DNA of 44,218 nucleotides from an uncultured Clostridia bacterium. Lineage in GTDB: Bacteria > Bacillota > Clostridia > Oscillospirales > Ruminococcaceae. The translations under genes were made by a program, and so were the position numbers. Location of the stretch: contig CANRFM010000018.1 in the NCBI GenBank assembly GCA_947629905.1, forward strand, positions 1 through 44,218, given 5' to 3'. Positions 10,144 through 29,325 of the stretch are shown here, in pieces. Position 1 is the stretch's first letter; each line of letters begins with the position of its first letter. The notes beneath the pieces were generated by a model. The model did no database searches. It was given only the letters and a program-made list of their open reading frames with translations, and was not told the origin of the DNA.

Positions 10144-10148
10144 TGGCT

Positions 10149-10173
10149 AAGCCCGTCCGCAGCGGATGGGCTT
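10149..10173 (+). other. Hairpin between cdsA and dxr
   Basis: A 12-base arm at 10149-10160 pairs with 10162-10173, with one G-T wobble and almost no loop (functionally about 11 bp with a 3-base loop). No clear T tract follows, so it is not a convincing intrinsic terminator. It could be an RNA processing or stability site or a weak attenuator splitting the operon before the MEP-pathway genes. Confidence 0.6.
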
Positions 10174-10218
10174 ATTCCGGTTTATTGCCGCATAATGGCG
10201 GGGAAAGGACGATATACT

Positions 10219-11370: not shown

Positions 11371-11399
11371 TTTTTCTTGGCACGGAAAGGAAAGCATCT

Positions 11400-12455
11400 A
11401 TGGGTATTGGTTCGATTCTGATTGCGCTTGTGGTATTTCTGGCAATCGTGGTGTTTCATGAGTTCGGGCATTTTATCGTGGCAAAGCTCTGCGGTATCAA
11501 GGTCAATGAATTTTCGGTAGGCATGGGTCCTGTGCTTCTGAAAAAGAAGGGAAAGGAAACGCAGTACTCCCTGCGGCTGTTTCCCATTGGCGGTTTCTGT
11601 GCGATGGAAGGGGAGGATGCAGAAAGCAGTGACCCCCATTCCTTTGGCAGCAGACCGGTGTGGAGCAGAATTGCCGTTGTGGTTGCCGGGGCAGCGATGA
11701 ACCTGATTCTGGGATTTCTGATCATCATTGTCACGACCTTGCTCTATGGGGATGTGACAACGCTGCAGATCGCCGGATTTTCGAGCGATGTGGAAACCGG
11801 GCAGTCTACCTCCACCAGTGAAACGAGCGGATTGCAGGCAGGGGATACCATTCTTTCACTGGACGGGATGCATCTGTTTACAGATACCGACCTTTCCTAC
11901 AAGCTTCAGACGGCAGAGTCGGATACCATGGAGGTCGTCGTGCGCCGTGACGGGAAAAAAGTCACGCTCCCGGCAGTAACGTTTCACAATACGAACACCA
12001 TGACACGGTTTGATTTCTATGTGAAAGCAGAAGACCTGAGCTTTTTGAGTGTGGTAAAATATGGTTTTCTGAATACCATTTCCACCGGGCGGCTAATCTG
12101 GTCGTCTCTGATCGACCTGCTGACGGGGAAGTATGGGTTTCAGGATATGTCGGGACCAGTCGGCATTGTAAGCACTATCGGGGAAGCGGCAAGCTACGGT
12201 GAAACATTCCGGCAGCATCTGATCTCTGTGCTGTCGCTGGCATCTTTTATTACGATCAATGTCGGCATATTCAATCTGCTGCCCATCCCTGCACTGGACG
12301 GGGCAAGGCTGATCTTCCTGCTGGTCGAAGCTGTCCGCCGCAAGCCTGTCAAGCCCGAATATGAGGGAATGGTGCATTTTATTGGCATGGCACTGCTGAT
12401 GCTGCTGATGCTGGCGGTGACGTTTCAGGACATCACCCGTCTGATACAGAAATAG
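11400..12455 (+). CDS. rseP: RseP-type site-2 zinc metalloprotease
   Basis: M50B intramembrane protease that cleaves membrane proteins (anti-sigma factors, signal peptides) within the bilayer. 351 residues. The zinc motif HEFGH is at residues 20-24 in the first membrane segment. A single PDZ domain spans roughly 120-195 (SGLQAGDTILSLDG), and the third zinc ligand motif NLLPIPALDGAR is near 291-302, followed by the last membrane segments. One PDZ domain and a ~350-residue length match the Gram-positive RasP/RseP form. The ATG has a GAAAGGAAAG site. The location between dxr and ispG is common in clostridia. Confidence 0.95.
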   Translation: MGIGSILIALVVFLAIVVFHEFGHFIVAKLCGIKVNEFSVGMGPVLLKKKGKETQYSLRLFPIGGFCAMEGEDAESSDPHSFGSRPVWSRIAVVVAGAAMNLILGFLIIIVTTLLYGDVTTLQIAGFSSDVETGQSTSTSETSGLQAGDTILSLDGMHLFTDTDLSYKLQTAESDTMEVVVRRDGKKVTLPAVTFHNTNTMTRFDFYVKAEDLSFLSVVKYGFLNTISTGRLIWSSLIDLLTGKYGFQDMSGPVGIVSTIGEAASYGETFRQHLISVLSLASFITINVGIFNLLPIPALDGARLIFLLVEAVRRKPVKPEYEGMVHFIGMALLMLLMLAVTFQDITRLIQK

Positions 12456-12482
12456 TACCAATCTAAAAGAGGAGGAACTGCA

Positions 12483-13520
12483 ATGAGAACTGTAAAACCT
12501 GTCCGTGTCGGCAATTGTCTGCTGAACGGCGAACATATCTATATGCAATCTATGCTGAACGTACCCGCAGAAGACGTGGAAGGCAATGTTGCACAGGCAG
12601 TCGCTTTAGAGAAAGCCGGCTGCGAAATCATCCGCACAGCCGTACCGGATCTCGAAGCTGTGCGCCTGATCCCTGCCATCAAGGAGAAGATCCACATTCC
12701 GCTGGTCGCAGACATTCACTTTGATTATCGCATTGCACTGGAAGCAGCCGCTGCGGGCGTGGATAAAATACGCATCAACCCCGGCAACATCGGCAGCATG
12801 GACAGGGTAAAGCAGGTCGCAGAGGCTTGCAAGTCCCGTAATATCCCCATTCGCATCGGTGTCAATTCCGGTTCTCTGGAAAAGGAGATTCTTGCCAAAT
12901 ACGGCGCTCCCACCCCGGAAGCCCTCGTGGAAAGTGCGCTGCACCATGCGGCAATGCTGGAACAGTTTGACTTCACGGACATTGTGATCTCTATCAAATC
13001 CTCCGATGTCAACCGCATGATCGACAGCTACCGCCTTGCCGCTGAGAAGTGCCCTTACCCACTGCATTTAGGTGTTACGGAAGCAGGCACGGAACGCATG
13101 GGGCTGATCAAATCCGCTATCGGCATTGGTTCGCTGCTGCATGACGGTATCGGGGAAACGATCCGGGTTTCTTTGACAGATGACCCTGTCAGGGAAATCG
13201 CTGCTGCCAAGGATATTCTCAAAAGCATCGGCAAGCGGGGCGGTGTGCAGCTTGTCTCCTGTCCGACCTGCGGCAGAACGAAGATCGACATCGTAGGGCT
13301 TGCAAAAAAGGTAGAAGAAGCTGTGCAGGACATTGACAAAAATGTGAAGATCGCCGTCATGGGCTGCGTAGTCAACGGACCGGGTGAAGCAAGGGAAGCT
13401 GACCTTGGTGTTGCGGGCGGTGACGGTATCGGGCTGCTGTTCCGGCACGGAGAAATTCTCCGGAAAGTACCGGAAGCGGAGATCGTTCCGGCATTGCTGG
13501 AAGAACTTGCAAAATTCTGA
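12483..13520 (+). CDS. ispG: 4-hydroxy-3-methylbut-2-en-1-yl diphosphate synthase (flavodoxin)
   Basis: Penultimate MEP-pathway enzyme: reductive conversion of ME-cPP to HMBPP, using a 4Fe-4S cluster. 345 residues, the usual bacterial two-domain form. The N-terminal TIM barrel contains VADIHFDYRIALEA and KIRINPGNIG. Cluster cysteines are C260 and C263 (VSCPTCGRT) and C295 (MGCVVNGPGEA). A strong GAGGAGGA ribosome site sits 5-6 bases before the ATG. It is followed 15 bases later by polC. Confidence 0.96.
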   Translation: MRTVKPVRVGNCLLNGEHIYMQSMLNVPAEDVEGNVAQAVALEKAGCEIIRTAVPDLEAVRLIPAIKEKIHIPLVADIHFDYRIALEAAAAGVDKIRINPGNIGSMDRVKQVAEACKSRNIPIRIGVNSGSLEKEILAKYGAPTPEALVESALHHAAMLEQFDFTDIVISIKSSDVNRMIDSYRLAAEKCPYPLHLGVTEAGTERMGLIKSAIGIGSLLHDGIGETIRVSLTDDPVREIAAAKDILKSIGKRGGVQLVSCPTCGRTKIDIVGLAKKVEEAVQDIDKNVKIAVMGCVVNGPGEAREADLGVAGGDGIGLLFRHGEILRKVPEAEIVPALLEELAKF

Positions 13521-13535
13521 ACCTAAGGTGATTAC

Positions 13536-16500
13536 ATGGAAAAAGCAACCGTTCTCGAATTCCTGAAACAATACATAGAGGACATTCCAATTTCCTTGCA
13601 GCAGGCTGTGATAGAGGAAATTCAGTTTGAGCCGGACAGCTACCGGCTGGTGCGGTTTGTGGTGCGTTGTCCGTCGGTCGTGCCGATGTCGGATATTGTA
13701 CGGCTGGAGCTTGCTGTCAATGCGGCACTGGGCATTGCGGGGGCAGAATTCAGCTGCCGCTATGATGCGGCATTGTTCACTGAAGCCTGTCAGGCGGAAC
13801 TGATCGCCATGCTCAAGCGGAAACTGCCGGTCGTCAACGGATTCCTGAACAAGGCGGACTGGACATGGGAGGGAGATCATATCCACATCGAGCTGCACAA
13901 CGGCGGCTATCCGATTCTTGCGAAATTTCATTTCCCGCAGGTATTTGAAGAACTTGCCGCAGAGCAATTTGGCAAGGAAATTCACGTGACATTCCACGGG
14001 AAAGATACCCTCACTGAGACGGAGCTGCAAAAAGTCATTGAGGAAGTGCCGCCTGAATTTGAAACGCCGCCCCCACCTCCGCCGCCTGTCTACCAGAGTT
14101 ACACACCGCCGCCCATTCCGGACAAGCCGCAATCCGTTTCACAGGATGCGGTCGAGCTGTCCTCTTGTAAGGGCGAAGATAAGGTCATCATGGGGCGCAG
14201 TATCCGTACAGAACCCATTCCCATTCCGGAAGCCTTGCAGACAAGAGGCGAACGGGTCGTGGTCTATGGCGATATCTTTGCCACGGAAAGCCGGGACATA
14301 CGGGGAGAACGGCGCATTGTGACCTATTCTATCACGGATTTTTCCGGTTCGGTGCTGGTGAAGTTGTTTGAGAGTGTCAAAAAGCTCGAACTGCTTCATC
14401 TCGAGGAGCTGAAAAATGGTGTCAGCGTACTGGTTGCCGGAAAAATGGAAGAGGATACTTACATCCATGAGGCTGTACTCCGCCCAGATGCCATTGTTAT
14501 CCGCAAACGCAAGCGCAAGGCGGACAATGCGCCCCGCAAGCGTGTTGAGCTGCATTGCCACACGAATATGTCCGCCATGGATGCCATTACGCCTGCGGCT
14601 GATCTGGTAAAACGGGCACACGATTGGGGACATCCGGCAATTGCCATTACCGACCACGGCGTGGTGCAGGCATTTCCGGAAGCCATGTCGGCAGAGCGTT
14701 CTCTCAAAGACCCGAATTTCAAGGTTATCTACGGCTGTGAAGCCTATGTCGTGGATGATCTGGAACGGCAGACTATCCTGAAAGGGGAGGACGACCGGAG
14801 CATTCAGGACGAAATCATCATCTTTGACGTGGAAACCACGGGTCTGAGCTGTAAGCACGACCGCCTGACGGAGATCGGTGCCGTCAAGCTGAAACGTATG
14901 CAGATCGTGGAAACATTTGACACGTTTGTCAATCCGGAACGGGAGATCCCGGCAGCCATCACGGAGCTGACCGGTATCACCAATGAAATGGTACAGGGTG
15001 CCCCCTCGGAAAAAAAGGCACTGAAAGCGTTCATGGAATTCTGCGGTGATAAGCCTGTTCTTGCGGCGCACAACGCAAGCTTTGATACCTCTTTCATTCA
15101 GACAGCCTGTAAGCGGCAGGGCATTGCATTTGACTATGCGTGGATCGATACACTGGTACTCTGTCAGTCTGCCTTGCCGGAACTGAACCGCCACAAGCTC
15201 GATGTAGTCGCCAAGCACCTCAAGCTTGGCAAATTCGGGCATCATCGTGCGAGTGAAGATGCGGCAATGCTTGCGAAGATCTACATCACACTGGTGGAAC
15301 GCCTTGCCAAGGAAAAGGGTGTGGAGCGTCTCACGGACTTGAATACCAAAGCCGACCCGATCGACGTGCGCAAACTGAAATCCTATCATCAGATCATTCT
15401 TGTCCGCAATCAGTTGGGCATGAAGAATCTGTACCGTCTGGTTTCATCCGGGCATCTCGAACATTTCTACCGGCATCCGCTGATCCCGAAATCGGAGCTG
15501 CTTCGTTACAGGGACGGTCTGATCTTCGGTTCAGCCTGTGAGGCAGGGCAGTTGTTTTCGGCTTTGGTGGACGGCAAGGACGATGCTTATCTGGAAAAGC
15601 TTGCCAAATTTTATGACTATCTGGAGATCCAGCCCATTGCCAATAATGCTTTCATGCTCCGGAACGGGCTTGCCAAGGATGAGGAAGCCTTGCGGGAATA
15701 TAACCGGAAGATCGTTGCACTGGGCGAGAAACTCGGCATTCCGGTCGTGGCGACCTGCGATGTGCATTTTATGGACAAAAAAGACGCTGTTTACCGGAAG
15801 ATCCTGACCTCCGGGCAGGGCTTTTCGGATACGGATCTCCAGCCGCCGCTGTATCTGCGCACCACGGAGGAAATGCTGAAAGAATTCGCCTATCTCGGGG
15901 AAGAAAAGGCGGAGGAGATCGTGATCACCAATCCTTGCCGCATTGCGGATGCGTGTGAGCACGTGTTTGCGATCCCGAGCGGGACATTCCCCCCGAATAT
16001 TCCCGGCGCAGAGGAAGATCTTGTCCGTATCACCAACGAACGGGCAAAGGAGATCTACGGCGACCCGCTGCCGGAGATCATTCGGGTACGGCTTGACCGG
16101 GAGCTGGATTCTATCATCAAGCACGGCTATTCGGTGCTGTATATGATCGCCCAGAAACTGGTGTACGATTCGGAGCTGCATGGGTATCATGTCGGTTCGA
16201 GAGGGTCGGTCGGTTCTTCGTTTGTTGCATCGATGGCAGGTATTTCGGAGGTCAATCCGCTGCCGCCGCACTATATCTGTCCGAAATGCAAATACAGCGA
16301 ATTTATTTCAGACGGCAGCTATGGGTCGGGGTATGACCTGCCGGCAAAAGATTGTCCGCAATGCGGAACAGAGCTGCTGCATGACGGGCATGACATTCCC
16401 TTTGAAACGTTCCTCGGGTTTGACGGCGACAAGGAACCGGATATTGACCTGAACTTCTCAGGGGAATACCAATCCGGCGCACACCGCTACACGGAGGAGC

Positions 16501-17867
16501 TGTTCGGGCGGGATAACGTGTTTAAGGCGGGGACGATTGGTACAATTGCCGAAAAGACAGCCTATGGCTTTGTGATGAAATACGTGGAGGAGCAGGGCGC
16601 CTTGCTCAACAACACGGAAATGAACCGTCTGTCAATTGGCTGTACCGGTATCAAGCGCACCACCGGACAGCATCCGGGCGGCATGGTCGTTGTACCCTCC
16701 AATTATGAGGTGTACGACTTCACACCCGTGCAGCACCCGGCGGATTCAGCAGATTCGGACATTATCACCACGCATTTTGACTTTCACTCGCTGCACGACA
16801 CCATATTAAAGCTGGACGAACTGGGTCATGTTGTGCCGACACAGTACAAACATCTGGAAGATATGACCGGGAAGAAAATCTCGGAGATACCCGGCTATGA
16901 CCCGAAGGTCATTCAGATGTGTACGGACTGTTCGGTGCTGGGGGTGACGAAGGAGGACATTTTCTGCGAAACAGGCAGCCTCGGTCTGCCGGAAATGGGT
17001 ACCAGTTTCACGATACAGATGCTGTTGGATGCCAAACCGAAGCGCTTTTCAGACTTCTTGCAGATCTCCGGGCTGTCACATGGCACGGATGTATGGCTTG
17101 GCAATGCCAAAGATCTGATCGATGCAGGTACTTGCACCATTTCCGAGGTAATAGGTACCCGTGACAGCATTATGACCTATCTGCTGCACAAGGGCGTTGA
17201 ACCGAAGGATGCCTTCCAGATCATGGAATTTACCCGTAAGGGCAAGGCGAAAAAGCTGTTTACCCCTGAACTGGTTGCCATGCTCAAAGAGCATGATGTG
17301 CCGGAATGGTATATCGAGAGCTGTCTGAAAATCAAATATATGTTCCCGAAAGCCCATGCAGCTGCCTACATCATCGCTGCCATGAAGCTTGGCTGGTTCA
17401 AGCTGTATATGCCGCTGCCGTATTACTCGACATTCTTTACGGTGCGGGGCGAGGACTTTGATGCCGAGCTTGCTGTCAAGGGTAAGGATGCCGTCCGGGA
17501 AAAGATCATGGAACTGCGTGAAAAGGGAAACGGCAGAACAAAAAAGGAGTCCGACCTCTATGAAATCCTGCTGATCGTCAACGAAATGCTGGCAAGAGGG
17601 CTGGAGTTCCTGCCAATCGACCTGTATCACTCTCATGCCACGAATTACCTGATCGAGGACGGAAAGATCCGCATCCCGTTCGGTGCACTCAGCGGTGTGG
17701 GGGAAGCGGCTGCCTGCAATGTATACGAGACAGCACAAAAGGGGAATTTTCTCTCCATTGAGGAATTTCAGCAGGAGAGCGGTGTGTCAAAAACGATAAT
17801 TGAAACACTGGAAAGTTTAGGAGCGTTTGGTGATTTGCCTAAATCGACACAGATGAGCTTCTTTTAA
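13536..17867 (+). CDS. polC: DNA polymerase III alpha subunit, PolC type
   Basis: Replicative polymerase of low-GC Gram-positives. 1443 residues, the expected size. Order of parts: N-terminal region with a proline-rich linker (about 175-190); OB-fold (about 225-320); PHP domain starting at RVELHCHTNMSAMDA (about 335); an inserted DEDD proofreading exonuclease beginning FDVETTGLS (about 428) with LAAHNASFD downstream; the rest of PHP; then the polymerase core with GSRGSVGSSFVASM (about 886), a zinc-finger-like CPKC...CPQCG pair (about 914-950), and the catalytic DKEPDIDLNFSGEYQ (about 967). All match PolC and not DnaE. The stop is immediately followed by the his promoter with no terminator, so polC transcripts may read into his. 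Confidence 0.98.
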   Translation: MEKATVLEFLKQYIEDIPISLQQAVIEEIQFEPDSYRLVRFVVRCPSVVPMSDIVRLELAVNAALGIAGAEFSCRYDAALFTEACQAELIAMLKRKLPVVNGFLNKADWTWEGDHIHIELHNGGYPILAKFHFPQVFEELAAEQFGKEIHVTFHGKDTLTETELQKVIEEVPPEFETPPPPPPPVYQSYTPPPIPDKPQSVSQDAVELSSCKGEDKVIMGRSIRTEPIPIPEALQTRGERVVVYGDIFATESRDIRGERRIVTYSITDFSGSVLVKLFESVKKLELLHLEELKNGVSVLVAGKMEEDTYIHEAVLRPDAIVIRKRKRKADNAPRKRVELHCHTNMSAMDAITPAADLVKRAHDWGHPAIAITDHGVVQAFPEAMSAERSLKDPNFKVIYGCEAYVVDDLERQTILKGEDDRSIQDEIIIFDVETTGLSCKHDRLTEIGAVKLKRMQIVETFDTFVNPEREIPAAITELTGITNEMVQGAPSEKKALKAFMEFCGDKPVLAAHNASFDTSFIQTACKRQGIAFDYAWIDTLVLCQSALPELNRHKLDVVAKHLKLGKFGHHRASEDAAMLAKIYITLVERLAKEKGVERLTDLNTKADPIDVRKLKSYHQIILVRNQLGMKNLYRLVSSGHLEHFYRHPLIPKSELLRYRDGLIFGSACEAGQLFSALVDGKDDAYLEKLAKFYDYLEIQPIANNAFMLRNGLAKDEEALREYNRKIVALGEKLGIPVVATCDVHFMDKKDAVYRKILTSGQGFSDTDLQPPLYLRTTEEMLKEFAYLGEEKAEEIVITNPCRIADACEHVFAIPSGTFPPNIPGAEEDLVRITNERAKEIYGDPLPEIIRVRLDRELDSIIKHGYSVLYMIAQKLVYDSELHGYHVGSRGSVGSSFVASMAGISEVNPLPPHYICPKCKYSEFISDGSYGSGYDLPAKDCPQCGTELLHDGHDIPFETFLGFDGDKEPDIDLNFSGEYQSGAHRYTEELFGRDNVFKAGTIGTIAEKTAYGFVMKYVEEQGALLNNTEMNRLSIGCTGIKRTTGQHPGGMVVVPSNYEVYDFTPVQHPADSADSDIITTHFDFHSLHDTILKLDELGHVVPTQYKHLEDMTGKKISEIPGYDPKVIQMCTDCSVLGVTKEDIFCETGSLGLPEMGTSFTIQMLLDAKPKRFSDFLQISGLSHGTDVWLGNAKDLIDAGTCTISEVIGTRDSIMTYLLHKGVEPKDAFQIMEFTRKGKAKKLFTPELVAMLKEHDVPEWYIESCLKIKYMFPKAHAAAYIIAAMKLGWFKLYMPLPYYSTFFTVRGEDFDAELAVKGKDAVREKIMELREKGNGRTKKESDLYEILLIVNEMLARGLEFLPIDLYHSHATNYLIEDGKIRIPFGALSGVGEAAACNVYETAQKGNFLSIEEFQQESGVSKTIIETLESLGAFGDLPKSTQMSFF

Positions 17868-17868
17868 C

Positions 17869-17897
17869 TTGACAAGGATGAACAAATGTGTTATTAT
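17869..17897 (+). promoter_or_regulatory. Promoter of the histidine operon
   Basis: A perfect -35 TTGACA (17869-17874) and -10 TATTAT (17892-17897) are spaced by 17 bases, beginning one base after the polC stop. The predicted start is near 17904, giving about a 50-base leader with GAAAGGAT before hisZ. No T-box, His-rich leader peptide or attenuator hairpin fits in this short leader. Control is therefore likely at initiation, through the palindrome that overlaps the -10. Confidence 0.82.
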
Positions 17898-17914
17898 AGT
17901 ACCATGATACTATA
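17895..17914 (+). promoter_or_regulatory. Palindromic operator-like site over the his promoter
   Basis: TATAGTA at 17895-17901 and TACTATA at 17908-17914 are exact inverted repeats around CCATGA, whose core CATG is itself palindromic. The site covers the -10 box and the expected transcription start, where a repressor would block initiation. TAGTAAC is then repeated downstream (17914-17920 and 17922-17928). From general knowledge, a TrpR-fold repressor of the YerC/HisR type has been proposed to control histidine genes in Firmicutes; assigning this site to it is inference, because the regulator gene is not in the window. Confidence 0.6.
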
Positions 17915-17952
17915 GTAACGTAGTAACACACTAAAGTGAAAGGATATACGCT

Positions 17953-19170
17953 ATGCGCCGATATGATCTGATCACCCCGGAGGGGACTAAGGACTATTTA
18001 TTTGAGGAATGCGCCCGCAAGCGCATGGTCGAGAACCGTACCCGTTCTATCTTTAAGTCAATGGGCTATACCCGTGTCATCACGCCCGGACTGGAATTTC
18101 TGGACGTATTCAGCCAGAATGCCCATTATTTTCCGCCGGAGGAACTTTGCAAGCTGACGGATAACAAGGGCAGACTGATGGCAGTGAGACCGGATTCGAC
18201 AATGCCGATCGCAAGAGTGGCAGCGACCCGCCTGAAAGATGCACCGCTGCCCCTGCGGCTGTATTATACACAGCCGGTCTACCGCTTTACGCCGTCTTTG
18301 AAAGGGCGCAGCACAGAGGTCAACCAGACCGGCATTGAGCTGCTTGGTTCGGCATCGGAAATGGCAGATATTGAGGTCATTTCGGCAGCGCTTTCCGTGC
18401 TGTCCTCGGTGGGGCAGGATGTGCCTGAGCCTTTTTCTGTGCATTATTCGCTGGAACTGGGGGATGTGCGCATTTTCCGGGAGCTGATGCACCGGCTGAA
18501 TGCTTCCCCTGCCCAGAAAGAGGAGATCTATGCACTGATCGAGTCCAAAAATTACCCGGCACTGAATGATATGCTTGACCGTATCGGCAAAAATCCGCTG
18601 ACACAGGCACTGCGCAAGCTGCCGACACTGTTCGGCGGGGAAGAGGTCTTTGAAAAGGCTTCGGAAGTTTTCCGGGATGCACGTATTCAGGAAATACTGG
18701 ACAGCTTGCAGGAGCTGTACCATACGGTATGCGCACTCATGAAGGGCGGCACTGTGCTGGTAGATCTCGGACTGGTGAACAGAACGGATTACTATACAGG
18801 GCTTGTCATCAAGGGCTATCTGGAGGGCTGCGGGGAGGAGGTCATTTCCGGCGGACGGTATGACACACTGCTGTCGGAATTTGGTTATGACATTCCGGCA
18901 GTAGGAATGGCGGTCAATGTCGATGCCGTTGCCAATGTCATCGGCAGAAAATATACACCGCACCCTGCCCCTGCGGATGTGCTGATCGCAGCAGAAAAAG
19001 GCTGTGAAGCGCTTGCTGTGCAGAAAGCAGAGATGCTCCGGGCAGAGGGGCTGTGCTGTGAGCATATGCTGGGCATGGATGATCCTGTGGAATTTGCAAA
19101 GAGCAGGGGCATCCCGAAAGTAATTCTGATGAATGCAGATACTGTGACGGAGGTGATGGTCGGTGAATAA
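17953..19170 (+). CDS. hisZ: ATP phosphoribosyltransferase regulatory subunit
   Basis: Catalytically inactive histidyl-tRNA-synthetase-like subunit that, with the short HisG, forms the ATP phosphoribosyltransferase and gives it histidine feedback control. 405 residues. It keeps the class II synthetase core: RYDLITPEGTKDYLFEE at the start, RPDSTMPIARVAATR (motif-2 region, near 76), and YYTGLVIKGYLEGCGEEVISGGRYD near 280-303. It lacks a full-length anticodon-binding end. It has a GAAAGGAT ribosome site and is first in the his operon. hisG follows with an 8-base overlap, as expected for a pair that works as one enzyme. Confidence 0.94.
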   Translation: MRRYDLITPEGTKDYLFEECARKRMVENRTRSIFKSMGYTRVITPGLEFLDVFSQNAHYFPPEELCKLTDNKGRLMAVRPDSTMPIARVAATRLKDAPLPLRLYYTQPVYRFTPSLKGRSTEVNQTGIELLGSASEMADIEVISAALSVLSSVGQDVPEPFSVHYSLELGDVRIFRELMHRLNASPAQKEEIYALIESKNYPALNDMLDRIGKNPLTQALRKLPTLFGGEEVFEKASEVFRDARIQEILDSLQELYHTVCALMKGGTVLVDLGLVNRTDYYTGLVIKGYLEGCGEEVISGGRYDTLLSEFGYDIPAVGMAVNVDAVANVIGRKYTPHPAPADVLIAAEKGCEALAVQKAEMLRAEGLCCEHMLGMDDPVEFAKSRGIPKVILMNADTVTEVMVGE

Positions 19171-19798
19171 GCCGCTGCGTATTGCCCTGACTAAGGGCAG
19201 ACTGGAAAAGGATACAGTTGCTTTGCTGGAACGGCTCGGTTACGACTGCACTGCCGTACATGAAAAGGGGAGACGGCTGATTTTGCCCATTCCCGATGCC
19301 AATTTAGAGGTCGTGCTTGCCAAGGCTGCGGATGTGATCACTTATGTGGAACACGGTGTCTGTGATATGGGTGTTGTCGGTAAGGACACGCTGATGGAAA
19401 TGAACGGGAAACTGTTCGAGCTGGTGAATCTGGGCTTCGGGAAGTGTAAATTTGCCCTTGCCACAAAGAAAGACTACCCGTTCTATGACGGTTTCGGAGT
19501 CAAGACCATTGCTTCCAAATACCCGAATGTGACACGTGCTTTCTTTGAGAATAAGGGCATGGATGTGGATATTGTAAAAATTGAAGGCTCTGTGGAGCTT
19601 GCACCGCTGCTGGGGCTTGCGGACGGGATCGTGGATATTGTGGAGACGGGGACAACACTGAAAGAAAACGGTCTGGAAGTCGTGGAAGATGTCTGTCAGA
19701 TCTCCGCACGCCTGATCGTGAACACTGTCAGCCTGAAAATGCGGCAGCGGGAGATCGAACAGCTTGTCACGAAGATCGAGGAGATGATAACAGTATGA
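19163..19798 (+). CDS. hisG: ATP phosphoribosyltransferase catalytic subunit, short form
   Basis: Condenses ATP and PRPP, the first step of histidine synthesis. 211 residues, lacking the C-terminal regulatory domain of the long form; this short form depends on HisZ, which precedes it. Landmarks are RIALTKGRLEKDTV at the N-terminus, CDMGVVGKDTL near 67, and the PRPP-binding loop DIVETGTTLKENGL near 156. The start is a GTG at 19163 with a near-perfect GGAGGTGAT site 5 bases upstream inside hisZ. It ends with ATGA shared with the start of the TIR gene. Confidence 0.95.
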   Translation: MNKPLRIALTKGRLEKDTVALLERLGYDCTAVHEKGRRLILPIPDANLEVVLAKAADVITYVEHGVCDMGVVGKDTLMEMNGKLFELVNLGFGKCKFALATKKDYPFYDGFGVKTIASKYPNVTRAFFENKGMDVDIVKIEGSVELAPLLGLADGIVDIVETGTTLKENGLEVVEDVCQISARLIVNTVSLKMRQREIEQLVTKIEEMITV

Positions 19799-20829
19799 AC
19801 AGCGTTATCAAAGGAAAGCCGTACTTATTCATCAGCTACAAGAGCGATGACAGGCGAATTGTAGAAAAAATTGTAGAGCAGCTTCGGAAACGATATGGTC
19901 TGAATATCTGGTATGATTCCGAAATAACCACCGGTTCGGTTTGGGAGAAAACTGTCAAGCAGATCATCCGGGCTGATGATTGTTGTGCTGTTTTGTTCTT
20001 CGCCAGCAAAAAGGCACTGATGAGCAGCAATGTAAAGATCGAATTGCAAGAGGCAACGGATTGGGGTAAATTTATCATTCCGGTCAATTTTGTGGACTGT
20101 CGGTTCAGTCAGATCCTGCGTGAGATCAATACCGAATATAACGGGACGATCATCGATGGTATGGATGTAGTGGATGAGGCAAAATATGTCATTACTACAC
20201 TTTTGGGAAATGATGCGTTATCCTATATTGTACTGGATGAAAATTCTGACCATTTTTATTCGTCTATCTACAGATCACTGGAAGTGAATGCACCTCAGTT
20301 GATAGAAAGCGCTGTGCAGCACGAAAAAGAAGTGACTCCGCAGGAAGTGATCCCCTCTGAACCTGTGCAGCGATCTGCACCGCAGCAGACGCAGAAGCAT
20401 AGCAAATTCAGAAAATACTCCTATCTGGAAAAAAAGAATGGTACCGCTGAACGTGTTCAGAAAAATGCGGAACTGAAAAAGCGTGCTGATGTCCTGCTGG
20501 ACAAGGCAGAAGAGATCGGTGCGGTGCTTGACCAAGCGAAATGTATGTTATGGTACAACCATAAGCCGATTTCGTGGACTGTCAGCATTACAGAAAAGGA
20601 CAACGGTGGCTGGTGGCAGAAACTGTCTCTCATTTATTTTGGAAAGAACGAGACACTTCACCTGAACATACATGATGATCTGGACGGGAATGTCATGATC
20701 AACAGTGCCAATGTTTTTGCCAACGGTGCATCGATCAGGGCAGGTGCTGTTGCAGATGCGGATGTGAGTGCGGAAATGAAAAAAGTAGTAGCCTGCCTGT
20801 ATGAAAACGGCTATCTGACAAGCGAATGA
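19795..20829 (+). CDS. TIR-domain protein embedded in the his operon
   Basis: 344-residue protein with an N-terminal TIR domain (about 8-135): PYLFISYKSDD (residues 9-19), WYDSEITTGSVW (39-50), a hydrophobic ADDCCAVLFFASKKAL strand-turn, and E83 in KIELQEATDWGKFIIPV, the position of the catalytic glutamate of NAD-cleaving TIRs. A Pro/Gln/Lys-rich linker (about 175-215) and a helix lead to an unrecognised C-terminal region (about 225-344) with WYNHKPISWTVSI and GGWWQKLSLIYFG. No membrane segment. It overlaps the hisG stop by 4 bases and the hisD ribosome site overlaps its stop, so it is translationally coupled. It is clearly A/T-richer than its neighbours, suggesting later insertion. It could be an NADase of a defence system, a signalling enzyme, or a regulator; NAD cleavage is inferred only. 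Confidence 0.85.
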   Translation: MNSVIKGKPYLFISYKSDDRRIVEKIVEQLRKRYGLNIWYDSEITTGSVWEKTVKQIIRADDCCAVLFFASKKALMSSNVKIELQEATDWGKFIIPVNFVDCRFSQILREINTEYNGTIIDGMDVVDEAKYVITTLLGNDALSYIVLDENSDHFYSSIYRSLEVNAPQLIESAVQHEKEVTPQEVIPSEPVQRSAPQQTQKHSKFRKYSYLEKKNGTAERVQKNAELKKRADVLLDKAEEIGAVLDQAKCMLWYNHKPISWTVSITEKDNGGWWQKLSLIYFGKNETLHLNIHDDLDGNVMINSANVFANGASIRAGAVADADVSAEMKKVVACLYENGYLTSE

Positions 20830-20843
20830 AAGGGGTATGGAAA

Positions 20844-22142
20844 ATGATCAAAACGATACAATGTGACGGCACACAGGAGTTTGCATTTCTGAAAGAACTT
20901 GCCAAGCGCAGCGGCGAGACAGACCGCCGTGTGTCACAGGTGGTGACGGAGATCATTGACACCGTCCGGGACGGCGGCGACAAGGCAGTCAAGGACTACA
21001 CGATGCAATTTGACGGCAGTCTGCCGCAGTATTATGAAGTGCCTGCCGAGGTCATTCAGGATGCCCTCACAGAGGCAGATCAGGATTTTGTGAATGCGCT
21101 GCTGAATGCACAGGAGAACATTGCCAATTTCCACAACCGCCAGAAGCCGCAGGGCTTCACGGATGCACAGCCGAACGGTGTTATTTTAGGGCAGCGTGTC
21201 CGTGGTCTGGAACGTGTCGGTCTGTATGTGCCGGGCGGTACGGCAGCCTATCCCTCAAGCGTGCTGATGAATGCGATCCCTGCCAAGATTGCCGGTGTTA
21301 AGGAAATTATTATGGTAACGCCCCCCTGCAAGGACGGCACACCGAACAAGGATATTTTGGTTGCCGCAGCGATCTGCGGGGTGGACAGGGTGTTCCTCTG
21401 CGGCGGCGCACAGGCGATCGCAGCGCTTGCCTATGGCACAGAGACGATACCGAAAGTCGATAAAATCGTAGGACCCGGCAATATTTACGTGGCAACTGCA
21501 AAAAAGCTGCTGTATGGTGTGGTGGATATTGACATGATCGCCGGACCGAGTGAGATCTTGGTGATGTCCGACAGTACAGGTGACCCGAAATTCATTGCTG
21601 CCGACCTGATGAGTCAGGCAGAGCATGATGTCCTTGCTTCGGCTATCCTGATCACCACAGACCCGTCACTTCCTGCCAAGGTGGAGACAGAGGTCAAACG
21701 GCAGATGGCTGCCCTTTCCAGAAAGGACATCATTGAAAAATCGCTGACAAATTATGGTGCGATCCTCATTGCCCGTAACCGGGCAGAGGCTGTCGAACTT
21801 GCCAATGCCATTGCGCCGGAGCATTTAGAGGTACACATGGAAAACCCATTGGAGCTGATCGGGGCACTGGACAATGCAGGTTCGGTATTCCTCGGCAGCT
21901 ATGCCTCTGAACCGCTCGGAGACTACTATGCAGGACCGAACCATGTGCTGCCGACTTCAGGAACGGCAAGATTTTTCTCGCCCCTTGGCGTGAATAGTTT
22001 CCTGAAGCGTTCGAGCTATATTTACTACACGGAGCAGGCACTGCGGGATGCGAAGGATGACATTGTGCTGATCGCCGAACGTGAGGGACTGACTGCCCAT
22101 GCCAATGCGATCAAGGTTCGCTTTGAGGGGGCATCCGAATGA
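20844..22142 (+). CDS. hisD: Histidinol dehydrogenase
   Basis: Oxidises histidinol to histidine in two NAD-dependent steps; zinc enzyme. 432 residues from the ATG at 20844, which has AAAGGGG 8 bases upstream. An in-frame ATG at 20826 lies upstream of that site and overlaps the TIR stop. Landmarks are YVPGGTAAYPSSVLMN (near 131), FLCGGAQAIAALAYGTE (near 190), KIVGPGNIYVATAKK, DMIAGPSEILV (near 235), AEHDVLASAILIT, and APEHLEVHME near 325. The hisC start overlaps its stop by 4 bases. Confidence 0.97.
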   Translation: MIKTIQCDGTQEFAFLKELAKRSGETDRRVSQVVTEIIDTVRDGGDKAVKDYTMQFDGSLPQYYEVPAEVIQDALTEADQDFVNALLNAQENIANFHNRQKPQGFTDAQPNGVILGQRVRGLERVGLYVPGGTAAYPSSVLMNAIPAKIAGVKEIIMVTPPCKDGTPNKDILVAAAICGVDRVFLCGGAQAIAALAYGTETIPKVDKIVGPGNIYVATAKKLLYGVVDIDMIAGPSEILVMSDSTGDPKFIAADLMSQAEHDVLASAILITTDPSLPAKVETEVKRQMAALSRKDIIEKSLTNYGAILIARNRAEAVELANAIAPEHLEVHMENPLELIGALDNAGSVFLGSYASEPLGDYYAGPNHVLPTSGTARFFSPLGVNSFLKRSSYIYYTEQALRDAKDDIVLIAEREGLTAHANAIKVRFEGASE

Positions 22143-23194
22143 GCTGGGAAGCCAACGTGCGCCGAGTCGTACCCTATACCCCCGGTGAACAGCCGAAAAT
22201 AGACGGTATCATCAAACTGAACACCAACGAGAACCCCTATCCCCCTGCCCCCGGTGTGGCAGAGGTACTCCGGCAGACGGACAGCACGCTCCTGCGTCTG
22301 TATCCCGACCCGGATGCTAAAGTTCTGGTGGATGCCCTTGCAGAGACCTACAGCGTGAAGCCTTCACAGGTGTTTGTGGGGGTGGGGTCGGATGATGTGC
22401 TGTCCATGGCGTTCATGACGTTTTTCAACGGGGAAAAGCCGGTGCTGTTTCCGGATGTGACCTATTCTTTCTATGATGTATGGGCAGAGGTACACCACAT
22501 CCCGTATCAGACCATTCCGCTGACGGAGGACTGGCATATCCGTGCAGAGGACTATAAGCGGGAAAACGGCGGCATCGTTTTCCCGAACCCGAATGCCCCC
22601 ACGGGCGTACTGGAACCGCTTTCGCTGATCGAGGAGATCTTGCAGGCGAATCCGGATTCTGTGGTTATCGTGGATGAAGCCTATATTGATTTCGGGGGGA
22701 CAAGTTGTCTGCCCTTGCTGAAAAAATATGAAAACCTGCTCGTCGTGCAGACCTTTTCCAAATCCCGTTCCCTTGCCGGGATGCGCATCGGCTTTGCCAT
22801 TGGTTCGGAGAAGCTTATACAGTATCTCAATGATGTGAAATTCTCCATCAATTCCTATACCATGACCCGGTTAGCCTGCCTTTGCGGGGCAGCGGCATTA
22901 GCTGACAAGGTATATTTTGAGATGACGGCCCAAAAAATCATTGCGACCCGTGAAGCTGCCAAGCAGCAGCTTTCGGCTTTGGGCTTTACGTTTCCGGATG
23001 CGTACAGTAATTTTCTGTTTGTCAGTCACCCGGAACTGCCGGCAGGGGAATTGTTCCGGGAATTGAAACAGCGGAAGATCTTTGTCCGTTACTGGAACAA
23101 GCCAAGAATTGACAATTCGCTGCGTGTTACCATCGGCACGCCCGAACAGATGGAGCAGCTTTATGCAGCTCTGAAAGAAATTCTCAAGAAATGA
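22139..23194 (+). CDS. hisC: Histidinol-phosphate aminotransferase
   Basis: PLP fold-type I aminotransferase that converts imidazole-acetol phosphate to histidinol phosphate. 351 residues. Typical segments are IKLNTNENPYPPAPGV near residue 23, FPNPNAPTGV (near 141), VDEAYIDFGG (near 179), and the PLP-lysine region QTFSKSRSLAGMRIGFAIG (near 204-222). The C-terminal RVTIGTPEQM is also family-like. Its stop overlaps one possible hisB start. Confidence 0.95.
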   Translation: MSWEANVRRVVPYTPGEQPKIDGIIKLNTNENPYPPAPGVAEVLRQTDSTLLRLYPDPDAKVLVDALAETYSVKPSQVFVGVGSDDVLSMAFMTFFNGEKPVLFPDVTYSFYDVWAEVHHIPYQTIPLTEDWHIRAEDYKRENGGIVFPNPNAPTGVLEPLSLIEEILQANPDSVVIVDEAYIDFGGTSCLPLLKKYENLLVVQTFSKSRSLAGMRIGFAIGSEKLIQYLNDVKFSINSYTMTRLACLCGAAALADKVYFEMTAQKIIATREAAKQQLSALGFTFPDAYSNFLFVSHPELPAGELFRELKQRKIFVRYWNKPRIDNSLRVTIGTPEQMEQLYAALKEILKK

Positions 23195-23202
23195 GGGATA
23201 CC

Positions 23203-23781
23203 ATGCAGACCGCTTCTGTGACACGTACTTCTAAGGAAACGGACATCACAGCCGTAATTCTGCCGGAGGACGGAAAGATGGAAATATCCACAGGAATTGG
23301 CTTTTTTGACCATATGCTGACTGCTCTTTCCGTACACAGCCGGATCCCGATGCGCATTACTGCCAAGGGAGACCTGCACGTGGATGCACATCATACCGTT
23401 GAGGACACGGGCATTGTACTCGGACAAGCACTGGCAAAAGCACTCGGTGACAAGAGTGGTATTGCCCGTTACGGTTCGGCGTATATTCCGATGGATGAAG
23501 CACTGGCGTTCTGTGCGCTGGACATCTGCAACCGCCCGTTTCTGGTGTTTGATGCGGCATTCACGAATGCAATGATCGGCACCTATGACAGCTGCCTGAC
23601 GGAAGAATTTCTGCGGGCATTTGCCTTTCAGGCAGGTATTACACTGCACGTCCGGGTGCTGTACGGCAAGAATGACCACCACAAGACCGAGGCAGCGTTC
23701 AAGGCGCTTGCCCATGCGCTGCGGATCGCCTGCACAACGGCAGGGGAGGGCGCTTTCTCGACGAAAGGGATATTAGGATGA
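23203..23781 (+). CDS. hisB: Imidazoleglycerol-phosphate dehydratase
   Basis: Dehydrates IGP to imidazole-acetol phosphate, using a di-manganese centre. Stand-alone HisB without a phosphatase domain, 192 residues from the ATG at 23203. I prefer this start because MQTASVTRTSKETDI matches the usual N-terminus and GAGGG lies just upstream. The ATG at 23191, overlapping the hisC stop, adds four residues and cannot be fully excluded. Metal-binding motifs are FFDHMLTALSVHS, DAHHTVEDTGIVLGQ, and the C-terminal KNDHHKTEAAFKALAHAL. Confidence 0.95.
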   Translation: MQTASVTRTSKETDITAVILPEDGKMEISTGIGFFDHMLTALSVHSRIPMRITAKGDLHVDAHHTVEDTGIVLGQALAKALGDKSGIARYGSAYIPMDEALAFCALDICNRPFLVFDAAFTNAMIGTYDSCLTEEFLRAFAFQAGITLHVRVLYGKNDHHKTEAAFKALAHALRIACTTAGEGAFSTKGILG

Positions 23782-24380
23782 TCGCAATCGTAGATTATGG
23801 AGCCGGGAATATTTTCAGTGTCAAAAATGCACTGGACTACCTCGGCATGGAAAATCAGCTTACAGATCAAGCAGAAGAACTTGCGGCAGCGGATGAGATC
23901 ATCCTGCCGGGTGTGGGTGCGTTCCCGAGCGCTATGCGGATGCTTGCGAAATGCGGTCTGGTCGGTGTTTTACAGGAACAGGCAAAGCAGAAACCGCTGC
24001 TGGGGATCTGTCTGGGTATGCAGATGCTGCTCGACAAGAGCTATGAATTTGAGGAGTGCAACGGCTTGGGGCTGATCCCCGGAACAGTCGAACCGTTGGA
24101 TGCACCGGGGCTGATCATTCCGCATATGGGATGGAATAAACTCGAAATGGGTGTGGACTGCCCCCTGCTGCACGGGCTGGGGGAGGAAAGCTATGTGTAT
24201 TTTGTGCATTCCTTTGCTGCCAAGTGTGCGGATGAAAATTTAGCGGCATGGGTGGAATACGGCGGACGTGTGCCTGCCATGGTGTATGACGGGAACTATG
24301 TATTTGGTGCACAGTTCCACCCGGAGAAAAGCGGCGAAGCGGGATTGCAGATCCTGCGGAATTTCGGAGGTCTGGTATGA
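23778..24380 (+). CDS. hisH: Imidazole glycerol phosphate synthase glutaminase subunit
   Basis: Class I glutamine amidotransferase that supplies ammonia to HisF. 200 residues. The nucleophile is C78 in LLGICLGMQMLLD; the histidine-glutamate pair is in FGAQFHPEKSGEAG near the C-terminus. ILPGVGAFPSAM (near 39) forms the oxyanion region. It overlaps hisB and hisA by 4 bases each. hisF is one gene further on, so both subunits are made from the same transcript. Confidence 0.96.
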   Translation: MIAIVDYGAGNIFSVKNALDYLGMENQLTDQAEELAAADEIILPGVGAFPSAMRMLAKCGLVGVLQEQAKQKPLLGICLGMQMLLDKSYEFEECNGLGLIPGTVEPLDAPGLIIPHMGWNKLEMGVDCPLLHGLGEESYVYFVHSFAAKCADENLAAWVEYGGRVPAMVYDGNYVFGAQFHPEKSGEAGLQILRNFGGLV

Positions 24381-25099
24381 TCATACTGCCTGCAATTGAT
24401 ATTAAGGACGGCAACTGTGTGCGTTTGGTGCAGGGGGATTACGGCACGGCACACAAGGTGGCTGAGGACTATATGCAGACGGCACAGGGCTTTGTAAAAG
24501 CCGGTGCCGAATGGATCCATATGGTCGATCTGGACGGTGCAAAAGAGGCAAAGCCCGTCAACACGGAGATTTTTCTGGACGTGGCAAGGCATACACCCCT
24601 GAAAGTAGAGGTCGGCGGCGGCATCCGCACGATGGAGACTATGGAACTGTACCTCTCCGGTGGTGTTTCACGGGTCATTCTGGGGAGTGTGGCACTGAAG
24701 CAGCCGGAACTTGTGGAACAGGCTGTCAGGGAATACGGCGAACGCATTGCAGTCGGCATTGATGCCAAAAACGGCTTTGTTGCTGTGGAGGGCTGGCTGG
24801 ACGCTTCTACGGTGGATTATATTTCCCTTGCAAAGGAAATGGAAAAAATGGGCGTGCGGACGATCATCTTCACGGATATTTCCAAGGACGGAACGCTTTC
24901 CGGGGTGAATACGGAACAGCTTTCTGCGCTGCATGAGGCTGTGGCGTGCCATGTCATTGCCAGCGGCGGTGTGCATACGATAGAGGACATACAAGCTTGT
25001 GCGGCAATGGGACTGTACGGGACGATTGCGGGAAAATCGCTCTATCAGGGCACACTTGACCTTGCACAGGCAATTGCCTACGCAAAGAAAGGGGCTTGA
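24377..25099 (+). CDS. hisA: ProFAR isomerase
   Basis: Amadori isomerisation of ProFAR to PRFAR; (beta/alpha)8 barrel. 240 residues. Catalytic aspartates are D8 in [19 protein letters not shown] and the aspartate in [14 protein letters not shown] near 167. The duplicated phosphate-binding glycine motifs [12 protein letters not shown] (near 76) and [12 protein letters not shown] (near 194) are intact. The segment KPVNTEIF and the histidine-operon position distinguish it from TrpF, though PriA-like dual function cannot be judged from sequence alone. Confidence 0.95.
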
Positions 25100-25101
25100 C
25101 T

Positions 25102-25857
25102 ATGCTGGCGAAACGGATTATTCCCTGTCTCGATGTGCGGGACGGGAAAGTTGTCAAGGGCGTGAATTTTGAGGGCATCCGTGAAGTCGGTGACCCTGTT
25201 GTCTGTGCTGCCGAATATAACCGTCAGGGGGCAGATGAAATTGTATTCTATGACATTACCGCTTCCCACGAGGGGCGTGGCGTGATACTCGATGTTGTCC
25301 GGGAGACGGCAAAGCAGGTCTTTGTCCCGCTTACGGTCGGCGGCGGTATCAAAACGGTCGATGATATCCGGGAGACACTGCGTGCCGGGGCGGACAAGGT
25401 CTCTGTCAATTCGCAGGCAGTGCAGAATCCGCAGCTTATCCGGGACGGGGCGGATATTTTCGGGAGTCAGTGCATCTGTGTCGGCATTGATGCCAAAAAG
25501 ACAAAATCCGGCAACTGGACGGTGTTCATCAACGGTGGCAGGATCGACATGGAACTGGATCTGCTCGACTGGGTGAAGCAGATCGAACAGCTCGGGGCAG
25601 GGGAGATCTGCCTCAATTCCATTGACACGGACGGCGTGAAGGGCGGCTTTGATCTGCCCATGCTGAAAGCGGTCGTGGATGCGGTCAGCATTCCGGTCAT
25701 TGCCAGCGGCGGGGCAGGGAAGTGCAGCGATTTTGCGGAAGCATTCGAGAAAACGGACTGTTCCGCAGCACTGGCGGCATCGCTGTTCCATTTCCACGAA
25801 CTGACCGTACAGGAAGTCAAGGCAGACTGCCGGCGCAAGGGGATCATTGTCCGATAG
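25102..25857 (+). CDS. hisF: Imidazole glycerol phosphate synthase cyclase subunit
   Basis: Uses ammonia from HisH to turn PRFAR into IGP and AICAR. 251 residues from the ATG at 25102, which has AAAGGGG 8 bases upstream; a TTG at 25096 is unlikely. Catalytic D11 is in [19 protein letters not shown]; the second aspartate is in [14 protein letters not shown] near 175. The phosphate loops [13 protein letters not shown] and [12 protein letters not shown] are present. Two unrelated genes separate it from hisI. Confidence 0.96.
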
Positions 25858-25875
25858 CAGAAATGAGGAATCGCT

Positions 25876-26733
25876 GTGCAGGTCAATTTCTTTGGATTTG
25901 ATGTGACAAAGGATGCAGGTGCAGAAGAGATTGCCGGTTCTGCGTTTCAGGTCAGAACGCTCTCTGAGGGGATGCGGGCTGAAATAGATGCGGCACGGGA
26001 AAAGCTTGATCAGTTAGAAGAACAGAGCAGCCTGCCGACCTCGCTGGGTATCGTAAAAACGTTCTCCGGATTGGCATTTTTTCTCATTCTGGGCTCTACC
26101 CTGAACGCTGGGATCGTGAAAGCATTTCAAAATGCATGGTGGCTGGAACTCATCGGTCTGGCGTGTCTCATCCTATGGATCGTTCTGACCGTCAAGACGT
26201 GGAAACTTCAGAAGAATGTGAAAATGCCGGAACATTTTCAGGAGCAGATGGAGGACACCTTGCGGCGTGCAAGGCAGGAACTCTGGGCAACGGAAAACGT
26301 TGATGCGCTGCTCGAAAACGCAGTGAACTTTGATATTCTGGCAGAGGTCTATGTCGTGAAAAATGACAAACCGGTGCGGAAAAACATGGGACTGACGATG
26401 TACAACAATATGGAAGTATGTGCGTATGTGGAAGCGGGAATGCTGTATCTGTCGGATGTCGAGACCCTCTGGGGCATTCCGACAGCTTCCCTGCGTTCCA
26501 TTACTCTGGTAAAAAAGCGTGTCAGCTTTCCGGAATGGAACAAGACCGAACCGTACAATGCTGCGTGTTACAAGCCCTTCAAGATCACCACAAATTCTTA
26601 CGGGCATTATTTTTCCCGCTATTATAAAGTGGAGATCTGTGATGTGAAAGGGGAGTTTTATCTGCTCATTCCGGAATATGACGGGGAAACTTTCATGCAG
26701 CTCACGAAACTGCGCCCGGCGGACAGCGACTGA
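25876..26733 (+). CDS. Uncharacterised two-helix membrane protein in the his operon
   Basis: 285 residues starting at a GTG (25876) with TGAGGA 6 bases upstream. No family recognised. An N-terminal soluble stretch with an acidic amphipathic helix (about 30-50, coiled-coil-like) precedes two membrane segments at about 60-80 and 86-105, with a very short turn between them (AFQNAWW), so both ends should face the same side. The C-terminal ~175 residues are soluble: a charged helix (about 110-140), then a mostly beta region with GLTMYNNMEVCAYVEAGMLY and YGHYFSRYYKVEICDVKGEFYLLIP, which reads like a PH-like or GRAM-like barrel. It lies 18 bases after hisF and 14 bases before the next gene, in the same transcript as histidine synthesis. 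Confidence 0.72.
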   Translation: MQVNFFGFDVTKDAGAEEIAGSAFQVRTLSEGMRAEIDAAREKLDQLEEQSSLPTSLGIVKTFSGLAFFLILGSTLNAGIVKAFQNAWWLELIGLACLILWIVLTVKTWKLQKNVKMPEHFQEQMEDTLRRARQELWATENVDALLENAVNFDILAEVYVVKNDKPVRKNMGLTMYNNMEVCAYVEAGMLYLSDVETLWGIPTASLRSITLVKKRVSFPEWNKTEPYNAACYKPFKITTNSYGHYFSRYYKVEICDVKGEFYLLIPEYDGETFMQLTKLRPADSD

Positions 26734-26747
26734 AAAGAGGACATATC

Positions 26748-27185
26748 ATGCAGACGACAAGACCGACAACAGCGCAGCTCAGGCACTGGAAAGAGATCTA
26801 TGCTGCGCACCGTCCCGGTATGCAGCCTGACCGGAAAACCGGTGCGGAGGTGAGTGCCTATCTACAAGAGCAATATCCCTGTGAGCCTCTGAATGACCCG
26901 GCGTTCACAGAAACGGTCACATATAACATCATGGAAAATGAACATTCCCGCCGGAAACTGCCGGAAGGGATGCAGCCGGATATTGCCGCTTATCATATCG
27001 GGGGTGTGCTTGTGGGGATCGATCTGGTGAGCGGTGAATTTCATGTGGAGAGCGAAGATACGGAACAGATAGCAGCGATCTATGACGATCTGTTTCTATT
27101 TCGGGGCTTGGATGCAGAAGATCTGGACAATTATTTTCTGACAGCACAGTATGTGCTGCTGTCACAAAAAGCTACTGAAAGATAA
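26748..27185 (+). CDS. Uncharacterised 145-residue protein in the his operon
   Basis: Small soluble acidic protein without a recognised family, signal peptide or membrane segment. An N-terminal helix ([18 protein letters not shown]) leads to a central region with conserved-looking [17 protein letters not shown] and [20 protein letters not shown] (alternating hydrophobic strands), and an acidic helix rich in D/E. It follows the membrane protein by 14 bases and precedes hisI by 17. A GAGGACAT site is placed well for the ATG. It may act with the upstream membrane protein; nothing in the sequence ties either to an enzymatic step in histidine synthesis. Confidence 0.7.
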
Positions 27186-27202
27186 GGGGGGAACAGAACA
27201 GC

Positions 27203-27535
27203 ATGGAGCTTGACAAATATTTTGTAAAATCCGACCTCATTCCTGCCATTGCGGTGGATGTACACACAAAGCAGGTGCTGATGCTTGCCTACATGAACCG
27301 GGAAAGCCTGCAAAAGACTTTGGAGACAGGCTATACATGGTACTGGAGCCGTTCCCGGCAGGAGCTGTGGAACAAGGGCGCAACGTCCGGGCATCTCCAG
27401 AAAGTTGTCTCGATGTTTGCGGACTGTGATGATGATACGCTGCTCATTTATGTAGAGCAGACCGGAAATGCCTGCCATACGGGAGCGTATTCCTGTTTCT
27501 TCAAGCAAATTTACGGTGAGCCGCAGGTGAAATAA
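27203..27535 (+). CDS. hisI: Phosphoribosyl-AMP cyclohydrolase
   Basis: Opens the purine ring of PR-AMP to give ProFAR; zinc/magnesium enzyme. 110 residues, the single-domain form without a fused HisE. Landmarks are [35 protein letters not shown], the metal motif [21 protein letters not shown] (split here by the conserved aspartates and the CH pair), and YSCFF. Strong AAGGGGGGAA site. It is the last his gene; a separate hisE (PR-ATP pyrophosphatase) is not in the window and must be elsewhere if the pathway is complete. Confidence 0.94.
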
Positions 27536-27579
27536 GAAAACCGTCACATTTCAGCCCCCTCCTGAATACTCTGTAACTA

Positions 27580-27598
27580 AGGGAAGCCTGCCTTCCCT
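27580..27598 (+). terminator. Hairpin after hisI, possible weak terminator
   Basis: AGGGAAG (27580-27586) pairs exactly with CTTCCCT (27592-27598) around CCTGC. A short GTTTTAG follows only after about 9 more bases, so termination would be weak. It is the only structure between the his operon and the next gene. Confidence 0.4.
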
Positions 27599-27623
27599 GT
27601 ACTAACGTTTTAGGAGGGCTACT

Positions 27624-28415: not shown

Positions 28416-28425
28416 CCGACAGGGC

Positions 28426-28451
28426 GCCTTCCCCGTGGAAGCGGGGAGGGC
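28426..28451. repeat. GC-rich palindrome upstream of proC
   Basis: GCCTTCCCCG (28426-28435) pairs over 10 bp (one wobble) with 28442-28451 around TGGAAG. No T tract follows on the + strand. The C/G-run stem with a short loop resembles the small interspersed palindromic repeats found many times in Oscillospiraceae genomes; only one copy is visible here, so this is a suggestion. Confidence 0.55.
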
Positions 28452-28479
28452 TGACCCATTTATAGAAAGGATGAGTATT

Positions 28480-29277: not shown

Positions 29278-29325
29278 TATAATTGACCGGACAGGCACAT
29301 ACACTTCACTAAGGGAGTGATGTGC

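Follow-up and report, generated by a model that had tools for sequence, protein, structure and literature searches.

A putative lone TIR immune gene inserted between hisG and hisD in the histidine operon of a Ruminococcaceae bacterium

The SpbK protein of the Bacillus subtilis element ICEBs1 is described as a single TIR protein with NADase activity that confers abortive infection and is activated by the phage portal protein YonE, on which its non-TIR domain docks (PMC12847820). Here, we describe a TIR-domain gene located between hisG and hisD in a stretch of 44,218 nucleotides, referred to below as the window, from the draft genome of an uncultured gut-type bacterium of the family Ruminococcaceae; among the papers listed in searches of the open PMC library, none gives an account of a TIR gene in a his operon. 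Because the gene is an insertion with a patchy distribution and a leader shared with its homologue, encodes a TIR_2 domain with a conserved glutamate, belongs to a protein class in which the TIR partner is modular, matches PADLOC models and has a precedent in SpbK, we consider it probable, at roughly 60%, that it is a lone, horizontally acquired immune gene, i.e., a self-contained effector working like SpbK, which rides in the his transcript.

The TIR gene is tightly joined to both neighbors (Table 1). Its initial ATGA overlaps the hisG stop codon (19796-19798) by 4 bases, as the first-pass annotation had stated. The hisD reading frame has a first ATG at 20826 and a second Met codon at 20844, and because the HisD matches in relatives begin at or near the latter, the hisD start is placed there; the AAAGGGG ribosome site therefore abuts the end of the TIR gene. 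The likely layout is a TIR stop codon at 20827-20829, the hisD Shine-Dalgarno sequence at 20829-20835 and the hisD ATG at 20844, in agreement with the earlier claim that the hisD ribosome site overlaps the end of the gene. Downstream of hisD are genes that we take, from their ORF sequences, to be hisC, hisB, hisH and hisA, in this order. The genes adjoining the TIR gene are his genes, with no defense gene among the neighbors, a point against the immune reading, and we infer from the layout that the gene belongs to the his transcript.

Table 1. Coordinates of the features discussed in the text (window numbering).
Feature	Position	Strand	Basis
Promoter-like TTGACA-17-TATTAT with extended TG, upstream of hisZ	17869..17897	+	11/12 matches, best of 11 sites
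GATACTATAGTAA, operator candidate in imperfect palindrome, just after promoter	17906..17918	+	sequence
hisZ	17953..19170	+	TIGR00443, above cut-off (NCBIfam)
hisG	19163..19798	+	TIGR00070 (NCBIfam)
Shine-Dalgarno-like GAGGAG for TIR gene, within hisG	19778..19783	+	sequence
Leader common to window and homologue L009	19780..19794	+	13/15 bases
Segment absent from nearest relative G007	19794..20823	+	1,030 bp; blastn breakpoints
TIR gene	19795..20829	+	ORF, 344 aa plus stop, ATG start; TIR_2 E 1e-14
TIR core, ~residues 1-110	19795..20124	+	Pfam residues 12-102
Putative catalytic E83	20041-20043	+	conserved E column; weak Cat1 alignment
C-terminal domain, residues 207-344	20413..20826	+	AlphaFold2, no Pfam match
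AAAGGGG, likely hisD ribosome site	20829..20835	+	sequence; relatives' hisD starts compared
hisD, likely start	20844..22142	+	TIGR00069 (NCBIfam); start by comparison with relatives

Comparison within the genus demonstrated that the TIR gene is an insertion at the hisG/hisD junction of the window's lineage. A hisG match was obtained in 35 of 38 genus genomes (G004, G012 and G036, where there was none, were left out of the junction count), and in all 34 genomes other than the window's own, hisG leads straight into hisD; at 33 of these junctions tblastn places hisD 4-35 nt past hisG codon 205, and the remaining sequence (L035) ends in the first hisD codons. The gene is thus present between hisG and hisD in 1 of 35 genomes, i.e., only in the window. 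In the nearest relative as judged by hisG (G007, 97%), the flanks are ~92% identical and colinear over 19 kb upstream and 10 kb downstream (blastn; window 194-19793 at 92.5% and 91.3% identity, 20824-30891 at 91.5%), and the breakpoints at 19793 and 20824 both map to G007:C1:141252. The segment of ~1,030 bp between them carries one gene in the same direction as the operon, with the hisD ribosome site just after it, and shows no target-site duplication beyond one base. A repeat search found no repeats flanking the gene in the window, and a mobile-element vehicle was rejected on these grounds. Synteny with G007 ends at window position 30891. Because the sequence of G007:C1 after 151328 (to 167000) is unlike the window's next genes, which were named by eye as cysteine-desulfurase-like and ThiI-like, there is a rearrangement or insertion within window positions 30892-44218 relative to G007.

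It is these uninterrupted junctions and the break around the gene in the G007 alignment that bear out the first-pass suggestion of a later arrival, which had been drawn from base composition. Both hand counts of G+C given at the time were exact on recount (23 at 19861-19920 and 36 at 20941-21000), and the G+C content of the TIR gene is 44.5%, below the 50.5-54.2% measured for seven his genes. Composition by itself is nevertheless weak evidence for a foreign origin because 7.9% of equal-length window stretches are as low in G+C. Three other large ORFs of the window (33463-34800, 38679-40307 and 40621-41460) have a G+C fraction of 0.42-0.45, as low as that of the TIR gene, and low G+C alone is therefore no marker of foreign genes in the window.

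The search for homologues covered a genome collection described as comprising 84,980 species, which was scanned with six peptide patterns of the TIR protein; the scan requires an exact pattern, i.e., more distant members could be missed. A single full-length homologue was found (L009, contig CANQKD010000022.1, G100:C22), 50% identical overall and 64% over residues 1-110, in MAG Lapin-026, a genome of the same family and another genus that, to judge by name, derives from a rabbit sample. At that locus it is a solitary gene, flanked by divergent coaX-like and ECF-transporter-like genes and by a HIT-like gene (names by sequence reading), and no his genes are present. Six genomes of that genus, G100 included, have the ECF-like gene; the TIR segment is absent from all three of the others that could be read across the site, and the remaining two loci are cut short or too divergent to read. 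Because each is lacking at the readable sites of relatives, both known copies appear to be lone and recent, in different places. Upstream of the homologue, at 2023-2249 of L009, is a MITE-like inverted repeat with 28-nt arms that are 89% complementary and 169 nt apart. The repeat does not enclose the homologue; two 12-mer core strings from it were not found in the loci of five relatives, where degenerate matches to the region are present.

The two genes share more than their coding sequence. Among 11,239 places in L009, the 15-base leader is matched at 13 or more bases at a single one, whereas of the 11 window bases that end at 19793 just 7 agree with G007. Because of this difference, we infer that the true left edge of the insertion is near 19780, i.e., that the leader probably arrived with the gene and that the last hisG codons were rewritten.

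The N-terminal part of the protein is a TIR domain, as recognized from the Pfam family TIR_2 (PF13676) at residues 12-102 (E 1e-14, 55.5 bits against a cut-off of 28). The column of E83, which we take from its position to be the catalytic glutamate column of TIR NADases, holds E in 21 of 22 rows of an alignment of the window protein and L009 with 20 others (the exception, L050, was mis-sliced), and E83 lies opposite a Glu of Cat1 in a weak profile alignment (E 0.33). The earlier reading of a TIR core with a glutamate at the NADase position is thereby upheld by position. The AlphaFold2 confidence of the TIR half was poor (block means 46-71 over residues 1-100, two-sequence input), and the assignment of E83 is positional; the best Foldseek match of the full model is a TIR domain, which is also weak (E 0.0028).

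The C-terminal domain had been called unrecognized, and so it proved in Pfam, NCBIfam, PADLOC and PHROGs. Even at E 10, Pfam assigns no family to the last 163 residues, NCBIfam offers no name for the protein, and the PADLOC matches cover the TIR part only. The PHROGs matches are weak and fall on families whose function is unknown, with two of these matches covering residues 167-257. AlphaFold2 produced a confident model when the domain was predicted alone (pLDDT 86, pTM 0.82), in which an alpha/beta fold would be built from one long and two short helices and a four- to five-stranded antiparallel sheet. Searches of this model with Foldseek, VIA and a viral library gave no clear PDB or viral fold match, which does not show that the fold is new. 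The protein thus adds to the TIR partners a domain without a confident match in the four libraries.

This domain is also rare. A profile of it, built from two rows and searched against family, class and order samples that overlap, identified at E<=0.001 only the window's genome (G000) and G100 among 396 family genomes and again among 391 class genomes; at E<=0.01 the 394 order genomes gave the same two and two weak matches judged spurious. With the full-length profile at E<=1e-10, 15 of the 394 order genomes were matched, and in the 13 besides G000 and G100 the match ends short of the C-terminal domain, at profile position 189 of 351 at the furthest. TIR proteins elsewhere in the order are, by eye, joined to many different partner segments, i.e., the layout is modular. 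The window's genome has a second TIR protein (L002, G000:C11:3705-4004), a 737-codon frame with a repeat-rich, TPR-looking C-terminal part. Two proteins with other partner segments (L049, G389:C10, and L059, G179:C14) have, like the window protein, two inserted residues ahead of the strand that leads into the Glu loop (strings ADDC, DADC and HPNC), and they possibly belong to its TIR subfamily. No vehicle was seen, because three scans of viral contigs and searches of phages and plasmids yielded no full-length or C-terminal relative; one phage-record match has 33% identity over query residues 7-146.

From these observations, the following mechanism may be proposed for a lone immune gene. The segment would have brought its own ribosome-binding leader; the hisZ promoter would drive its transcription, and its translation would be coupled to that of hisG, such that the his operon would supply expression and give no function. 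The C-terminal domain would serve as the sensor, and the N-terminal TIR domain, once clustered and thus activated, would cleave NAD+ (or make cyclic ADP-ribose) via E83, leading to growth arrest of infected cells. Of the two functions put forward in the first-pass annotation, a defense gene lodged in an operon is the one that fits an insertion lacking a conserved his linkage. The locus would then be a clean case of a single putative immune gene within a core biosynthetic operon that remains unbroken, a position in which a defense-island search would likely miss it. If the enzyme is active, this species and G007, which are ~8% apart in DNA, offer a natural comparison of the operon with and without the gene.

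The main rival to the immune reading, although unlikely in our view, is that of a selfish or neutral passenger that was brought in through illegitimate recombination at a patch resembling a ribosome site, and that is expressed without benefit and now being lost. Presence in a single genome of the genus would be expected from such a gene, and G007 may already have lost it: the distance from hisG codon 205 to the hisD Met is 35 nt in G007 as compared with 4-22 nt in the other 32 relatives measured, and 13 of 20 bases of this spacer resemble the sequence that follows the TIR gene in the window, as would a deletion scar. There is thus a hint, and only a hint, that the gene may have entered a common ancestor; the 13/20 resemblance is weak, and it involves purine-rich ribosome sites. 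Against a mere passenger speaks the ORF itself, which is intact and, at the identity to L009 given above, conserved, strongly so at its C-terminal end, and therefore points to selection on the family as a whole. For the C-terminal domain, this apparent constraint rests on one pair because only two members with the domain are known.

Other readings involve the control of the operon. The number of promoter-like sites in the search (11) equals that expected from shuffles (10.8), and the case for the site upstream of hisZ therefore lies in its score and place. The pattern GATACTAYRGTAA has two exact matches in the 2.01-Mb draft genome, at the hisZ promoter and upstream of the single YerC/HisR-family match, a result that is partly circular, as these same two promoters had served to derive the pattern; with at most one mismatch, the reversed control pattern occurs at 31 places and GATACTAYRGTAA itself at 9. 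Of 35 hisZ upstream regions in the genus, 9 were left out for want of sequence; 10 of the other 26 carry the element exactly, and the reversed control has none with fewer than two mismatches. At hisR, the element is exact in just 2 of 16 anchored upstream regions, the window's own and that of G007, where the anchor was a simple residue pattern that may sometimes be wrong and that left out 14 of 30 loci. The published common HisR consensus was unconvincing at the hisZ promoter, where it matches at 10 of 14 positions, since 23 of 339 stretches of the window reach that score; the genus-specific element does better, within the circularity noted above. Rfam at gathering thresholds found a single tRNA and nothing else in the window, and regulation of the operon by a T-box or another known RNA element was therefore rejected. 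In many genus members, as in the window (17893-17952), the stretch from the -10 box to hisZ has TAGTA/TACTA-like units in tandem and, after them, often a TAAAGTGA-like block; this region is a candidate for a lineage-specific operator.

In Ruminococcus gnavus, the repressor HisR is reported to belong to the TrpR family, to have 20-bp palindromic sites and to require histidine for DNA binding (PMC9413887), and HisR repression with histidine is plausible in the present species. With the hisZ promoter ahead of the insertion, and next to that promoter an element that recurs upstream of the YerC/HisR-type gene, TIR expression could possibly follow histidine supply; this would be a consequence of location and is no evidence of a role. 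An extended scenario, with the C-terminal domain as a sensor of an undescribed kind and a HisR-type promoter that raises the TIR level when histidine is scarce, such that amino-acid supply sets immune readiness, seems to us quite improbable. Very improbable is the link offered as an option at first pass, i.e., that the TIR protein is kept in the operon as a regulator whose level follows histidine demand and ties NAD or nucleotide signaling to the histidine/PRPP state. The same-strand coupling with hisG and hisD, the shared element and the histidine requirement of HisR would suit such a role, but all 34 relatives lack the gene at the site, the sole full-length homologue found does not lie between hisG and hisD or near any his gene, and the low counts above for the hisR-side element and the HisR consensus speak against it. 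A histidine-linked function was rejected for this want of linkage.

That the protein is secreted to act on neighbors or the host, as host-mimicking or inter-bacterial TIR toxins do, is highly improbable; such use of TIR proteins is reported for some bacteria (PMC9092222; PMC4219826), but here inspection by eye shows the N terminus passing directly into the TIR core, with nothing like a signal sequence ahead of it, and the neighbors are metabolic genes. Least credible is an assembly artifact in which a foreign fragment was joined into the his contig, for although the genome is a 40-contig draft that is 89.65% complete, one contig carries the gene with both colinear flanks, and hisG and hisD are in frame with plausible ribosome sites.

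Returning to the immune reading, the window protein may be compared with the described TIR systems. The same-order TIR_2 proteins (e.g., L047, L048, L054 and L056-L060) are 20-34% identical to it over residues 1-110 (19 correctly sliced rows) and most have a similar PY-x-F-x-SY opening, but none is matched by the C-terminal-domain profile in the same 394-genome order sample. The structures of Cat1 (CRISPR-associated TIR 1) and AbTIR align with part of the TIR core, for Cat1 including the Glu, but with weak scores (E 0.015-0.33) and with other domains and contexts. The CBASS effector TIR-SAVED is similar in its TIR part (PADLOC SAVED_TIR, E 1.3e-7, residues 10-90), but the match ends at residue 90, there is no SAVED match in the C-terminal part and no CD-NTase is found among the adjoining genes. 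Likewise, Thoeris ThsB shares the TIR domain (PADLOC ThsB, E 0.00046, residues 6-85), but the Pfam ThsB_TIR score of 15.5 bits is below the cut-off of 21.2, the window protein has the additional C-terminal domain, and the neighbors are hisG and hisD with no adjacent ThsA; a search of the window's genome for STALD/SLOG receptors gave no match, as was the case for control genomes. SpbK differs in domain order and partner, with a four-helix bundle at the N terminus and the TIR domain at the C terminus, whereas in the window protein the TIR domain is N-terminal and its partner is predicted to be alpha/beta; furthermore, SpbK rides an integrative element, whereas the window gene is alone in a biosynthetic operon. 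The two are alike in that each is one protein composed of one TIR domain, one other domain and a linker, gained horizontally, and a proposed NADase triggered by clustering, in the case of SpbK in the account cited above (PMC12847820).
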